From contig JACQYL010000045.1 of the NCBI GenBank assembly GCA_016208165.1, positions 1 to 64,000 on the forward strand: a DNA stretch of 64,000 bases, in the 5' to 3' direction. The notes under the pieces were generated by a model that saw only the letters and a list, made by a program, of their open reading frames with translations, did no database searches and had not been told where the DNA came from. The position numbers and the translations under genes are program-made. Below are positions 53,986 to 59,501 of the stretch, one piece after another. Within the stretch, counting starts at the first letter, position 1. The number at the start of each line of letters is the position of its first letter. Origin of the DNA: Deltaproteobacteria bacterium. GTDB taxonomy: Bacteria > Desulfobacterota > Desulfarculia > JACQYL01.

Positions 53986-54795
53986 TTATGATTTCTTCCG
54001 AGCTGACGCCTTGAAAAACGTGTAGCAAAAGACGCCGTCGGGTTCCGTGGTTCGGTAGAGGTCCCTTATCCCTTTGTCGAAGGTCGCCGGATCGATCAAA
54101 GCGGCCTCGAGGGCGGACTCGCGAATACCCTCGATCATGGCTGTGAACGTCTTCCGGGTGAATCCGTCGACCAGTTCCGGCCTGCTGGTATCCACATAGA
54201 CCATGCGGGGGGAAACGGAGACGTTCTCGAACCCGGCTCTGTCGAGCAGAGGATACAGCTCGCGACCGATCAAGGCGTTGCCCCCGGAGGCCGCCTGAAG
54301 TTCGATTTGACATTGGATGGCTCTCCGGGCGCAATCACTGTCCGGAAAGAAATAGGCGGACCCGTGATCCCCTTCAATTACTGTGATGGAGCCGCCGGGT
54401 TGGAGAAGGGCTTTCAGATGGATCAACGCGTCCACCGGCTCGGATAGATGTTCGAGGACAAAACAGACGAAAATGTGGTGAAACGTCTCGACCCTGAACG
54501 GCAAATGGAAAATATCGCCCTGTAAGAAAGTGACATTCCCTGAACCGGCAGACAACACGGCCCGACGGGCTTCGACCACCGAAGCGTTGGATATGTCAAG
54601 CGAGGTAATCCGAGCGTCTGGGCTGCTCCGTGCAAGAGTGACGGTCTGGGCGCCCACTCCGCAGCCTGCTTCAAGAACGAGACTCCCCGCGGGAAATGCG
54701 GTGTCCGCATGCAGAAGTTCGACCAACGTGGATGCCTGGTCCTGCAGCCGGACGGTCTCTTTCCGGTCATAGCCGTGAACGTAGATGTTGCTCAT
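53986..54795 (-). CDS. SAM-dependent methyltransferase
   Basis: The 269-residue product is a class I methyltransferase. Motif I is LEAGCGVGAQT at about residues 38-48, followed by the acidic residue of SLDIS, the motif around GDIFHLPF, and FVCFVLEHL. The substrate cannot be read from sequence; the pattern fits small-molecule or menaquinone-type methyltransferases. The ATG at 54795 has GGGGGA 4-5 bases upstream, and an alternative ATG lies six codons earlier. It is divergently placed from the ATPase pair, so the 697-base region between may regulate both. Confidence 0.9.
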   Translation of the reverse strand: MSNIYVHGYDRKETVRLQDQASTLVELLHADTAFPAGSLVLEAGCGVGAQTVTLARSSPDARITSLDISNASVVEARRAVLSAGSGNVTFLQGDIFHLPFRVETFHHIFVCFVLEHLSEPVDALIHLKALLQPGGSITVIEGDHGSAYFFPDSDCARRAIQCQIELQAASGGNALIGRELYPLLDRAGFENVSVSPRMVYVDTSRPELVDGFTRKTFTAMIEGIRESALEAALIDPATFDKGIRDLYRTTEPDGVFCYTFFKASARKKS

Positions 54796-55301
54796 TCTTA
54801 TCCCCCGAGGCATGACGCCTCTTCAAAACCCGGCGCAACGTCAACCCCGTATCGATCCCGACGCGCCCATCAAGGAGGGAGCCGAAGGTTGGGTTGAAGA
54901 GCCAAGCCCAATACATACGGAAGTTCTTATCGGGTTCCACTGGATTCGCTCGCCGGTCCATAAACACTCTCCCGGAAAGCTTACTCTGCGGCAGGGACGA
55001 TACACGGCCCCATTCCTCCACTTTATCCGGAAGTCGAGATATACGCCCCTTGAATGAACAGAGGATGTTGCATATCAGTATACCTTCACAGTGGAATATC
55101 CGTGGCTGTTTGCGCCGCGTTCGAGCAGGCAATGCATTTTAGAGAATTGGGGAGAAAGGATCAAGGCTTGTACCTGAAAGAATTCCAGGCCATGGATATC
55201 CAATTTATTTCACAATAAAATAAGTAACTTATAAAGTGGTTGACCTAAACGGGAAGGCACCCACGCTCCGGTGTCGCTGTTCACAGGTTAAGCGTTAATA
55301 T

Positions 55302-55403: not shown

Positions 55404-55431
55404 TTGACAGCCGGCAGAGAAAAGGTAATAT
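55404..55431 (+). promoter_or_regulatory. Strong sigma-70-type promoter of the ATPase pair
   Basis: A perfect -35 box TTGACA (55404-55409) and a near-perfect -10 box TAATAT (55426-55431) are 16 bases apart. Transcription would start near 55438, giving a leader of about 55 bases. Direct repeats begin immediately after the -10 box. Confidence 0.75.
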
Positions 55432-55475
55432 ACACCAATAGAGACGTACATCAATAGTAACGTACATCAACAACG
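55432..55475. repeat. Iteron-like direct repeats over the transcription start
   Basis: ACGTACATCAA occurs at 55444-55454 and 55460-55470, with a 16-base period, and a weaker copy (TACACCAATAG) stands one period earlier. The array covers the predicted transcription start, the usual place for a repressor site. Confidence 0.55.
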
Positions 55476-55492
55476 GCGTAGAAGGGGGCGAA

Positions 55493-56686
55493 ATGAGACC
55501 AGTTGTCGGAGGATATGTACCGCCTGACCGGGTCGTGGGACGAGACGACGACATTCGAAGAATATGGAACGCCCTTGAAAATCAAAGTGTTGTGCTGGTT
55601 TCAGAGCGCAGGATCGGCAAGACGTCCGTTATACGCAAAATGGGAAAAGAGCCCATCGACGGTTGGTACCCGGTCTACCTGGTCATCGAAGGCGTCCGAT
55701 CTCCCTCCGAATTCATCTCAAAAATCGTTGAAGCCGTATCCCCTATATTGAGCAAGAAAGGTCGCGCTTTAACCAAGTTCAGGCAAATGTGTGTGGAACT
55801 CGGCGGTGGAAGCATCGGCAGTTGGACCCTGCCCCAATTCAAGGAGAATTGGAAGCGATTGCTTCAAACGACTCTCAACGATATCCGAGACAACTTCGAC
55901 GAAACGGTTCTCTTTCTTTGGGACGAGCTGCCCCTCATGATCTCCAATATCAAAGACGACCTCGGAGTCAAAACGGCGATGGAACTCCTAGATATCCTCA
56001 GGGACCACCGCATAGCCGATGATTCGGGAAAACTGCGAATGATCTACACCGGTTCCGTTGGGCTTCATCTGGTCATCTCGGAACTCTACCACGCCGGCTA
56101 CCGGAACGATCCTACCAACGACATGGCCACGTTTGCTTTGGAAGGTCTTGGCCCTCGATATGCAGGGGAACTCGCATGTCAGGGATTGCAGGAACTGATG
56201 GATGACGGCGAAATAGAACTTCGAGATTCTCTCGATGGTGTTGGGCGAACCATCGCCGCGGCGACGGACGGTCTGCCTTTTTATATCAACTACGCAGTGG
56301 AGACTTTATCCGAATTCAGACAGCCCATCGGATGCGAAGACGCGGTATCGGCAATCGACGGGCTGCTGTTGGATCCCGAAGACAAAGCTCATTTCGGTCA
56401 CTATGCGGAACGCATCCAAGCCTATTATCCCTCACGGTTTCAGCAGAGAGATATCGCCTTCGAGATTCTGAAGAGCCTCTGCCGCTCTGATGAGTCACTC
56501 GGTGAAGACGACATTTTGAATCATGTTGCCGCGCAAATGGTAGTTACGGACCGGAATCTTTTCCAAAGGGTCCTCGGCTTGTTGGTCAAGGACCACTATT
56601 TGCGCCGAGACCATGACGAGAAAAACAGGTTGTACCAATTCAAGTACGACATCATCAGGAGATGGTGGCTCAAGAATAGAGGGTAA
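55493..56686 (+). CDS. P-loop ATPase with C-terminal winged helix (first of a pair)
   Basis: The 397-residue protein resembles the AAA/STAND ATPases sometimes called archaeal-type ATPases. Walker A is SERRIGKTS with Lys43, and Walker B is FLWDELP with Asp144 and Glu145. A sensor-like segment (LRMIYTGSVGLHLV) follows. The last 80 residues look like a winged helix (FQRVLGLLVKDHYLRR) followed by the YQFKYDIIRRWW ending typical of this group. No nuclease, protease or TIR domain is visible. The next gene begins one base after its stop. Role unknown; defence, regulation or assembly are all possible. Confidence 0.85.
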   Translation: MRPVVGGYVPPDRVVGRDDDIRRIWNALENQSVVLVSERRIGKTSVIRKMGKEPIDGWYPVYLVIEGVRSPSEFISKIVEAVSPILSKKGRALTKFRQMCVELGGGSIGSWTLPQFKENWKRLLQTTLNDIRDNFDETVLFLWDELPLMISNIKDDLGVKTAMELLDILRDHRIADDSGKLRMIYTGSVGLHLVISELYHAGYRNDPTNDMATFALEGLGPRYAGELACQGLQELMDDGEIELRDSLDGVGRTIAAATDGLPFYINYAVETLSEFRQPIGCEDAVSAIDGLLLDPEDKAHFGHYAERIQAYYPSRFQQRDIAFEILKSLCRSDESLGEDDILNHVAAQMVVTDRNLFQRVLGLLVKDHYLRRDHDEKNRLYQFKYDIIRRWWLKNRG

Positions 56687-56687
56687 C

Positions 56688-59501
56688 ATGCCGACAAAGA
56701 TGGACACCGTCTCGCTGTTCAGTCCGGGAAACTGCACGCCAGGGCTGTTGGAATCCATGCTCGTTGGCCAACACCACCTCGTCGATACACTCGAAAAAGC
56801 CGTCCTGGACAGCATTCGGACCGGGGTCGGACACAACTGGCTCCTAATAGGCCCCCGGGGAACGGGAAAGACGCACCTGCTGGCTGTCCTCTACAACCGG
56901 ATCGACGCCAATCCGGACTTCCGGGACCGCTTGGCCATCGCCTATATGAAGGAAGAAGAACGCGGCGTAGCTACCTTTCTCGACTGGCTCGTGCGAATCC
57001 TTAGAGCTCTGGAGCGACGCCAAGAGACCCCTGCCCAGTCCAAAAAAGACGTGTCGCTTGAAGATGAATTGATTCGACTCACCCGGATGCCGATAGAAGA
57101 CGCCCAAATCATGGCGGAGCGAATCCTGCTCGATTTCGTGGGTGACCGGAGGCTATTGCTGATTGCGGAAAACCTTGGCGAGATTTTTTCGGACACCAAA
57201 GGCATGGGCAAAGATGGGCAGCGCAGATTCAGGGACCTGGTCCAGCAGCATCCTTTCTGGATTATCATGGCGTCAACGCAATCACTCTTTAAAGACATTC
57301 AGACCCAGCAGGCCCCGTTTTATGGGTTTTTTCGAATTCAACACCTCCGGACATTCACGTTCGAGGAAGCGGTCGAGCTGCTGGAAAAGCTGGCGGAATC
57401 CGAGGAACGCGCGCACCTCGGGAAGTCCTTTCGATCGGAGGCGGGTCGGGGCCGGATCCGCGCAATTCACGAGATCACCGGGGGCAATCCGCGACTCCTG
57501 GTGATTTTCTATCAGTTTATAGATCGGGAATCCGTCCAGGATCTGGCGCGATCTTTTCTGGAAATGGTGGACAGCCTCACGACGTACTACCAGGAACAGA
57601 TGCAGCCGCTCCCGGCGCTTCAGCAGAAGATCGTGGAATTCCTCTCCGAACGCCGCGTACCTCAAAGCGTCAAGGAGATCGCCCAATCCTGTTTCATTAC
57701 CCATCAGGTAGCTTCCGGCCAGCTCAAGCGCTTGAAGGACCGCAGATTCGTCAAGGCCACCCCGGTCGGTCGAAAGACATACTATGAGCTGCAAGAACCT
57801 CTTTTCAGGATCTGTTTCGAGGTGAAAGAAGACAGGGGGTATCCCATCCGTCTATTCATTGATTTTCTGGGCCGATTCTACACTATGGAAGAGCTCAAAA
57901 GGAAGCACAGGGCTGCCGAAGTTCTGGTGTCGATCTACAGGTCCGGAGGCATGCTGCGAGAAGCGAGAAGACATCAGATGGAACTCACCCATATCGATGC
58001 AGCCCTCTCCAACTATCATCCCGTAGTACTCGCCGAACCCGACTTCCACTATGGCCGCGCCGATGTTCTTGACATCCGGAACAGATCGTCCATCATCGAC
58101 CAACTCCTCGCCTCGGAGGACTACACGGAGGCCGTGCGACTGGCTGATGCCGCTTTTGAACTGAAGATGGGAGGGCCCGAATTTCTGCTCAAGAGCGCCA
58201 GGGGCCGGCGACGGCTGGGAGACAAACAGAGCGCCTTGGAGAAACTCAGAGGTCTAGGTGCGCTTTCCTCTGAGGATCCCGAGGTCTGGGCGGAAAAGGG
58301 TGCTTTGGAGGAAGAGTGCGAAGACGACGATGCAGCCGAAAGGAGCTATCTCCGCGCCTTGGAGCTGGACGGTGCGAACGTTGAGGCTCTCTTGGGGCTC
58401 GGACGGATTTACTGGAACAGACGAGACCACGCCCTTGCGCTAAAGTACTTCCTTGATGCCACCAAGTGCGCTCCGGGGCAATCGGAAGGATGGCGGCTTC
58501 TAGGTCTAGCCCAAGAGCAAACCGGGGATATCCAGGGCGCCAGAGCCAGTTATAAGAAGGCCACGGATCTCGACTCGCTGGACTTTGACGCATGGCTACT
58601 CCGGGGCAGGTTCGAGTTCAATCAGGGTGCGCACGCCACGGCGCTCGAGTGCTTCACTCATGCGATCAGGCTCCAACCTGACAAGCCCGAGGCTTGGCAA
58701 CTGCTGGGCGTGGCCCGGGAACGAGCCGGAGATATCGAGGGCGCAAAAGCGAGCTATGAGAAGGCCACGAATCTCGACCCACATGATCCAATTACATGGC
58801 TTTTCCGAGGCAGGTTCGAGGGGGGACAAGACAACCATGCAGCGGCGCTGGAGTATCTGAACAAAGCCGAATCCTTGGGGCTGACCTCCGCCTATCTGCA
58901 GAACACTATCGGTGAAGAACTAAGGAAAACAGGATCCCACAAAGAAGCCATAGACCGCTACCGTCAAGCTGTTGAGCTGGATCCCGATGATTGTTTTCCA
59001 CGTTTCAACATCGCCCTCGCCCTCTTCCAGTCGGGGGATCTGCAAGGATGCATGGAACAAATCGCTCGAACTCTGGAGGCCGGAGCGGACAGGGACTGGG
59101 CCGAACCCGCGCAAGTATGTATCGATGAGATGAATTTCGAACTACTGAGACACGGTCTCTTTGAAGGACTGCCGGATCTGATAAAAGAACAGTGGGATCT
59201 CTTCAAGGACGGGCCGTTCCGGGAATCCTTCGCTGAAGGGTTCACCGGTGCGCTGACGGAGTTGCTAAAGCGACATCGGGAAATCCCCTTGGAACGCCTC
59301 GTTTACCTGCGGGACCGCGTTGTCTCCGAACTGTCTCAAGAAGCCTCATTCAGCGTGATTTGCCGCCTCTTCAGCATCGGAGTTCGTTACTTACAAACCA
59401 AGAACTTAGAGGTGCTGCTCGAATTGCCGTTGGAGGAACGATCCCTATTGGAATCCATCCTCGAGGAAGAGGAAGAGAGCGGAACACATTCCCCCAGTTA
59501 A
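56688..59501 (+). CDS. P-loop ATPase with winged helix and TPR repeats (second of a pair)
   Basis: The 937-residue protein has three parts. The ATPase (about residues 20-300) has Walker A GPRGTGKTH with Lys61; Walker B reads LLLIAENLGE, keeping the Glu at about 161 but with Ala where Asp is usual. About residues 310-390 form a winged helix-turn-helix (VPQSVKEIAQSCFITHQVAS). About 440-790 are tetratricopeptide repeats, followed by a helical tail ending in a Glu-rich stretch. This is the layout of STAND sensors, with repeats as ligand-sensing part, but no effector domain is visible. It starts one base after the first ATPase and is surely co-translated. Confidence 0.85.
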   Translation: MPTKMDTVSLFSPGNCTPGLLESMLVGQHHLVDTLEKAVLDSIRTGVGHNWLLIGPRGTGKTHLLAVLYNRIDANPDFRDRLAIAYMKEEERGVATFLDWLVRILRALERRQETPAQSKKDVSLEDELIRLTRMPIEDAQIMAERILLDFVGDRRLLLIAENLGEIFSDTKGMGKDGQRRFRDLVQQHPFWIIMASTQSLFKDIQTQQAPFYGFFRIQHLRTFTFEEAVELLEKLAESEERAHLGKSFRSEAGRGRIRAIHEITGGNPRLLVIFYQFIDRESVQDLARSFLEMVDSLTTYYQEQMQPLPALQQKIVEFLSERRVPQSVKEIAQSCFITHQVASGQLKRLKDRRFVKATPVGRKTYYELQEPLFRICFEVKEDRGYPIRLFIDFLGRFYTMEELKRKHRAAEVLVSIYRSGGMLREARRHQMELTHIDAALSNYHPVVLAEPDFHYGRADVLDIRNRSSIIDQLLASEDYTEAVRLADAAFELKMGGPEFLLKSARGRRRLGDKQSALEKLRGLGALSSEDPEVWAEKGALEEECEDDDAAERSYLRALELDGANVEALLGLGRIYWNRRDHALALKYFLDATKCAPGQSEGWRLLGLAQEQTGDIQGARASYKKATDLDSLDFDAWLLRGRFEFNQGAHATALECFTHAIRLQPDKPEAWQLLGVARERAGDIEGAKASYEKATNLDPHDPITWLFRGRFEGGQDNHAAALEYLNKAESLGLTSAYLQNTIGEELRKTGSHKEAIDRYRQAVELDPDDCFPRFNIALALFQSGDLQGCMEQIARTLEAGADRDWAEPAQVCIDEMNFELLRHGLFEGLPDLIKEQWDLFKDGPFRESFAEGFTGALTELLKRHREIPLERLVYLRDRVVSELSQEASFSVICRLFSIGVRYLQTKNLEVLLELPLEERSLLESILEEEEESGTHSPS

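Follow-up and report, generated by a model that had tools for sequence, protein, structure and literature searches.

The 64,000-nucleotide (nt) stretch analysed here (hereafter the window; positions 1 to 64,000 of contig JACQYL010000045.1, from a member of the Desulfarculia) contains a two-gene unit, P1-P2, which we interpret, with a probability of roughly 0.55, as an undescribed, autoregulated two-protein switch of the signal transduction ATPases with numerous domains (STAND) type. P1 (397 residues) and P2 (937 residues, with tetratricopeptide repeats, TPRs) are conserved and co-inherited as a pair. A single base (C) separates the P1 stop codon from the P2 ATG, and both the coordinates and this spacing agree with the first-pass annotation of the window, which had described two different ATPase genes one base apart. 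Because the nearest annotated-looking neighbours lie on the opposite strand and the rest of the window consists of housekeeping genes, P1 and P2 form a unit of two genes.

Conservation and Co-inheritance of P1 and P2

A search with P1 and a profile search with P2 across 395 genomes of the window's phylum agreed on eight genomes, the window's included, in which the two genes lie side by side; the P2 profile added three distant, solitary P2 genes. Species genomes of bacteria and archaea were also scanned with the P2 alignment, with no selection for P1; at least 62 loci were recovered, spread over Cyanobacteria, Planctomycetes, Proteobacteria, Acidobacteria, Bipolaricaulota, Neomarinimicrobiota, archaea and others. 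Among the matches listed, P1 was directly upstream of P2 at 60 of the 65 evaluable P2 loci (those whose upstream DNA spans 250 nt or more), and the gap between the genes was −17 to +14 nt in 53 of these 60; fragmented metagenome assemblies may split pairs artificially. The loci with no P1 directly upstream were L094, L100, L102, L107 and L104. In the last of these (L104:9656-11890) only the winged-helix end of P1 is left, fused in frame to P2, and the P1 ATPase domain is missing, which reflects either decay or a true fusion.

Pairwise distances in the P1 and P2 trees were strongly correlated (r = 0.909; permuted maximum 0.154), and 33 of 51 splits were common to both trees. Since the pairing is conserved and the trees agree, the two proteins are likely to be produced together and to function together. 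The first-pass annotation had asked whether the genes are always adjacent, and had named homologs that usually occur alone as the finding that would count against it. Across the P2 loci, homologs do not usually occur alone, so this attempt at refutation failed. The pair was present in none of the family libraries searched, no paper describing it was found in a literature search, and viral contigs and phage genomes yielded no relatives.

A Family-Wide Array of 16-bp Repeats at the Promoter

The region upstream of P1 contains a putative promoter followed by three direct repeats (Table 1). A near-consensus promoter with direct repeats over the start site had been proposed earlier; the repeats, the perfect −35 element and an overall match of 10/12 positions hold, whereas the −10 element agrees with the consensus at only 4/6. 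Promoters were called by the sigma-70 consensus, which is possibly not valid for archaea and for certain phyla. The window has three repeat matches, compared with 0.06 expected in shuffles. Family-wide, the DNA upstream of P1 carries direct repeats with a period of 16 bp (15 in the L036-L039 clade), and the mean best score was 8.1 at period 16, whereas every other period, like the 429 control upstream regions, gave approximately 4. These sites are spread over many phyla, and their sequences are clade-specific. By eye, the typical unit is a 10-bp palindrome followed by an A/T stretch (AACGTACGTT+AAATTT, GTTGTACAAC+AAATTT or GTTATATAAC+AAATTT), and the period-15 variant reads GTTGCCAAC. In the closest relative, L050, ACGTAC-type repeats are kept and the other upstream DNA is unlike.

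A promoter could be recognised at 17 loci, and at 14 of these the repeats overlap positions −35 to +20, the usual position of a repressor. Because the 16-bp period recurs across the family, and exact copies of the pattern occur in the window's genome only at the P1-P2 promoter, the repeats are a family feature beyond chance; the repeat-bearing promoter is supported as a part of the P1-P2 system. A search of the window's genome for a regulon sharing the repeats returned nothing above background, and from the restriction of exact copies to this one promoter, control by the repeats appears to be local.

Repeats adjoining a gene whose product has an ORC/Cdc6-like fold could also suggest an initiator-like pair, in which ORC/Cdc6-type AAA+ winged-helix proteins would sit on the origin iterons of an integrated element. 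We consider this extremely unlikely, as the repeats lie over a promoter, the neighbours are chromosomal, and plasmid, integrase and replication genes do not accompany the pair.

P2 as the Candidate Reader of the Repeats

Solitary genes indicate which of the two proteins may read the array. The lone P2 of L100 has a clear 16-bp repeat pair, that of L124 is separated from a divergent cyclase operon by 160 bp that contain an array, and the lone P2 genes of L125-L128 have the same motif class just upstream. The motif CCAACAAWWTTGTT (at most one mismatch), present at nine loci, occurs only within approximately 500 bp upstream of a P1 or P2 gene and was never found in 147 kb of shuffled sequence. 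No such array was found upstream of L040, where P1 occurs without P2. The winged helix of P2 has a MarR/ArsR-type recognition helix which differs between repeat classes. Since the repeats persist at several lone P2 genes, whereas the lone P1 of L040 is without them, P2 probably binds the 16-bp repeats through its winged helix, and we also favour, with somewhat less assurance, repression of its own operon by P2. The winged helix of P1 was considered as the reader and is less likely on the same grounds. Three distant lone P2 genes with the motif upstream (L126:6493-9102, L127:4599-7217 and L128:5223-8372) share a metabolic neighbourhood.

Autorepression would also suit a toxin-antitoxin-like module, with P2 as autorepressor and antidote and P1 as the harmful partner, and the two-gene operon, the repeats over the promoter, the patchy spread and the lack of a constant third gene are in line with this. 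Such a module is nonetheless very unlikely here: both proteins are STAND-like ATPases of large size, no known toxin domain occurs in P1, which comes first in the gene order, lone P2 genes exist, and P1 persists without P2 in L040.

Domain Architecture and STAND-like Features

Pfam matched P1 only to AAA_22, and weakly. Its AlphaFold2 model (folded, like that of P2, as a single chain) had a predicted local distance difference test (pLDDT) score of 91 and includes a winged helix. The best Foldseek match was 2qen, an archaeal Walker ATPase, with further matches to plant NLR resistosomes, ORC/Cdc6, Apaf-1 and CED-4, and a profile match was obtained to 2fna (SSO1545; 2.5e-9). By profile and fold, P1 is thus like the archaeal Walker ATPases SSO1545 (2fna) and PABY2304 (2qen). 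Asp-Glu is present in the P1 Walker B motif wherever that region is present, and a conserved Pro262 in the helical domain forms a GxP-like motif.

In P2, Pfam recognized an AAA_16/ATPase_2-type domain, a MarR-like winged helix (MarR_2) and a TPR array. The AlphaFold2 model (pLDDT 86, with a poorly aligned TPR region) orders these as nucleotide-binding domain, helical domain, winged helix, TPR superhelix and C-terminal helical region. A sequence search of the PDB with P2 gave generic AAA and helix-turn-helix matches only, and TPR structures swamped the Foldseek result for the full-length protein. The motif TGGNPRL is read as GxP from knowledge of STAND proteins (PMC6468293).

The Walker B acid of P2 is Glu161, followed by Asn162 and preceded by an Ala at a variable hydrophobic position. 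Glu-Asn was found in 61 and Asp-Asn in 6 of the 67 aligned sequences, so the substitution of Ala for Asp in the earlier description stems from a misalignment, and a lesion in this motif was rejected given its family-wide conservation. STAND Walker B motifs vary at the position of this Asn. Judging from these residues, P2 is probably a slow nucleotide switch in which the Asn after the acid would slow hydrolysis. In a Segatella copri plasmid (L031:9926-11973), P1 is followed by a short second ATPase that lacks TPRs, with the 16-bp repeats upstream retained. This second ATPase has an Asp-Glu Walker B; the Asn is therefore a mark of the main P2 family, not one shared by all second ATPases in layouts of this kind. 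A P2 of 490 residues, also TPR-less, was seen at L095:128-1600, L102:9980-11452 and L107:3882-5354 in a conserved setting, preceding genes that resemble a metal ABC transporter; no P1 was found at L102 and L107, and L095 is cut by the contig end.

Both proteins have a P-loop nucleotide-binding domain with Walker A and B motifs, a GxP motif (TGGNPRL in P2, Pro262 in P1) and, in the AlphaFold2 models, a winged helix after the helical domain; P2 alone has a repeat sensor, the TPR superhelix. The Walker A and GxP-like motifs in both place them with the STAND-like NTPases, and both look like STAND-type switches. STAND proteins usually, although not always, carry an effector domain. Pfam, PADLOC and NCBIfam gave no match in P1 or P2 to an effector domain or to a family of nuclease, TIR, protease or membrane type, for which reason the pair is filed as STAND-like. 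NCBIfam and PADLOC offered no convincing name for either protein, and PADLOC-DB profiles of known anti-phage components gave weak matches only (best 2.8e-4). The first-pass annotation had anticipated much of this architecture: its winged helices in both ATPases were borne out by the models, its intact Walker A motifs by the alignments, its long TPR array in the second protein by Pfam and AlphaFold2, and its report of no visible nuclease, TIR, protease or membrane domain by the searches above.

A Proposed Autoregulated Switch

The conserved pairing, the co-inheritance, the asymmetry of the Walker B sites, the STAND-like folds and the persistence of the array at several lone P2 genes may be combined in an autoregulated STAND switch. 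At rest, the P2 winged helix would occupy the 16-bp array over its own promoter and keep expression of the operon low. P2 would act as sensor and regulator, its TPR superhelix taking up a signal (a protein or a small ligand) that would change the nucleotide state of P2. P1, with a complete Asp-Glu Walker B, would assemble with P2 and drive or execute the response once P2 has switched. Formation of a complex between the two proteins is probable. That the output is immunity or stress defence is possible, at somewhat less than even odds.

Several observations weigh against the autoregulated switch. No effector domain is visible in P1 or P2. The difference in period-16 scores from the controls (Mann-Whitney p = 1.7e-14) includes related loci, which are not independent. 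At L037 and L038 the pair of repeats with the best score is placed upstream of −35, and the shorter lone P2 genes of L102, L107 and L123 have no array. The comparison with P1 in the absence of P2 involves a single case, L040.

Neighboring Genes and Links to Nucleotide-Messenger Immunity

The first-pass annotation had also suggested looking for a linked third gene. An all-against-all comparison of 762 neighbouring open reading frames found none that is constant across loci. Among 130 close neighbours there was no defence enrichment, with isolated matches only and mostly metabolic or housekeeping genes. A methyltransferase gene lies divergently upstream of P1-P2 in the window (53989-54813, minus strand), and the same layout occurs at L036:10739-11566. 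The two methyltransferases are 71% identical, yet the P1 proteins of these loci share only ~21-23% identity; either a shared insertion spot or a functional link may place this gene beside both pairs.

In three loci, a RelA_SpoT-domain gene (PF04607) is directly upstream of an N-terminally extended P1 (Table 1): L103, from candidate division WOR-3; L110, from the Solibacteraceae; and L040, from the window's phylum and with no P2. A triple 16-bp array stands immediately before the RelA/SpoT gene of L103, which makes that gene part of the controlled operon. A search of the phylum for further P1 genes of this type returned the known case only. On conjugative plasmids of Agrobacterium (L124:4175-12084) and Sphingobium (L125:1-5413), P2 homologues with no P1 adjoin Pycsar genes. 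In L124 these comprise two PycC cyclases together with an E1-E2 gene; L125 has PycC genes and also a PycTM effector. Pyrimidine cyclase and effector genes are absent from the window itself. These cases link relatives of P1-P2 to nucleotide-messenger immunity, but there are only a few of them and they are far removed from the pair in the window.

An anti-phage function of P1-P2 is plausible. The pair could be a stand-alone abortive system in which the P2 TPRs sense a phage component, as in Avs and NLR proteins, and growth is halted by P1-P2 oligomers through an unrecognised activity; the repeats would then serve only to keep a costly system quiet. The STAND/NLR-like fold of P1, the patchy spread (8/395 genomes of the phylum), the RelA/SpoT-like gene in the L103 operon and the Pycsar cyclases and effector adjoining P2 homologues on conjugative plasmids all fit this. 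Such a system is still somewhat unlikely, given that there is no known effector domain or PADLOC match, that close neighbours lack defence enrichment, that phages and viral contigs have no relatives, and that the links to defence are rare and confined to distant relatives. Of the undescribed switch-like or defence system suggested for this locus in the first pass, what stands is a conserved STAND-type pair for which no description was found; the defence role is not sustained by mostly housekeeping neighbours and the absence of a PADLOC match. We tentatively consider, as an idea with less than even chances, that P1-P2 and its array form a regulatory core, with one STAND protein reading the array, which spreads horizontally as a unit and in some branches is coupled to RelA/SpoT-like or Pycsar immunity. 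If so, the same kind of switch would either act by itself or serve as the input stage for a variety of defence outputs.

Table 1. Positions of the P1-P2 features in the window, and of the RelA/SpoT-linked loci in other genomes.
Feature	Position	Strand	Basis
Promoter-like site TTGACA-16-TAATAT	55404..55431	+	Consensus scan, 10/12 matches; putative
Operator-like array, three 16-bp direct repeats, just downstream of −10, over expected start site	55431..55478	+	
P1, STAND/ORC-like ATPase with C-terminal winged helix	55493..56686	+	AlphaFold2, Foldseek, profile match
P1 Walker A region SERRIGKTS, residues 37-45	55601..55627	+	R39, R40, G42 and K43 invariant in 55 sequences
P1 Walker B LFLWDE, residues 140-145	55910..55927	+	D144 and E145 invariant
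P2, STAND-like ATPase with winged helix, TPR array and C-terminal helices	56688..59501	+	Pfam, AlphaFold2
P2 Walker A GPRGTGKT, residues 55-62	56850..56873	+	P2 alignment
P2 Walker B LLLIAEN, residues 156-162, Glu-Asn	57153..57173	+	[E/D]N in 67/67 aligned P2
P2 TGGNPRL, STAND-like GxP motif, residues 264-270	57477..57497	+	Conserved alignment columns
P2 winged helix, residues 310-368, proposed repeat reader	57615..57791	+	MarR_2, AlphaFold2, recognition-helix table
P2 TPR superhelix, ~residues 465-797, TPR-like helix pairs	58080..59078	+	Pfam, AlphaFold2, Foldseek
P2 C-terminal helical region, ~residues 802-931	59091..59480	+	AlphaFold2; no family match
RelA/SpoT-like gene with extended P1	L103:451-2628, L110:7579-9954, L040:6995-9248		

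Comparison with Known Systems and Implications

The closest working analogues are MalT, PH0952 and IniR and, for the operator, RptR. E. coli MalT and P. horikoshii PH0952 (PMC6468293) share with P2 the succession of nucleotide-binding domain, helical domain, winged helix and TPR sensor, and action at a promoter, known or predicted, is common to them. Both carry their DNA-binding domain as a separate terminal unit and lack an obligate ATPase partner, whereas P2 is paired with P1 and seems to use the winged helix in the nucleotide-binding oligomerization domain (NOD) itself. A separate terminal DNA-binding domain was looked for in P2 and not found, its one winged helix being in the NOD position, and for this reason P2 was not assigned to the MalT/PH0952 type; nor did P2 match PH0952 in sequence. 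Mycobacterial IniR, a regulator of a stress operon with an ATPase domain similar to SSO1545 (PMC5760070), is a single protein with its own DNA-binding domain, in contrast to the sensor-less P1 with its dedicated partner.

These likenesses raise the possibility of a transcriptional or stress regulator with no immune role, in which a metabolite or protein would tune the level of the pair and some cellular process. MalT and PH0952 are indeed STAND transcription factors with TPR sensors (PMC6468293), the SSO1545-like IniR controls a stress operon (PMC5760070) and P1 has a profile match to SSO1545 (2fna), and the lone P2 genes of L126-L128 carry the motif among metabolic genes. However, exact repeats in the window's genome are found only at the pair's own promoter, a patchy spread is unusual for a core regulator, and a separate DNA-binding effector domain is not present; we therefore regard this alternative as unlikely.

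P1 resembles plant resistosomes, Apaf-1 and CED-4 in fold, and P2, like NLR/Avs immune sensors, has a repeat sensor. Known NLR/Avs systems carry an effector domain, whereas none was found in P1-P2, a STAND pair with one operator array. For that array, the direct-repeat repressor RptR (PMC12255303) offers an analogue, with promoter-proximal direct repeats and local control of a possible immune operon. Regulators of this kind are small, in contrast to the reader proposed here, a large STAND ATPase encoded inside the operon.

STAND switches are relatives of the immune and cell-death switches of plants and animals. Among them, P1-P2 is a compact, testable case of a STAND hetero-pair with one complete and one altered Walker B site, in which a STAND winged helix is probably still reading DNA, as in ORC/Cdc6. 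The RelA/SpoT-like and Pycsar links in its relatives offer a clue to the possible control of nucleotide-messenger immunity.

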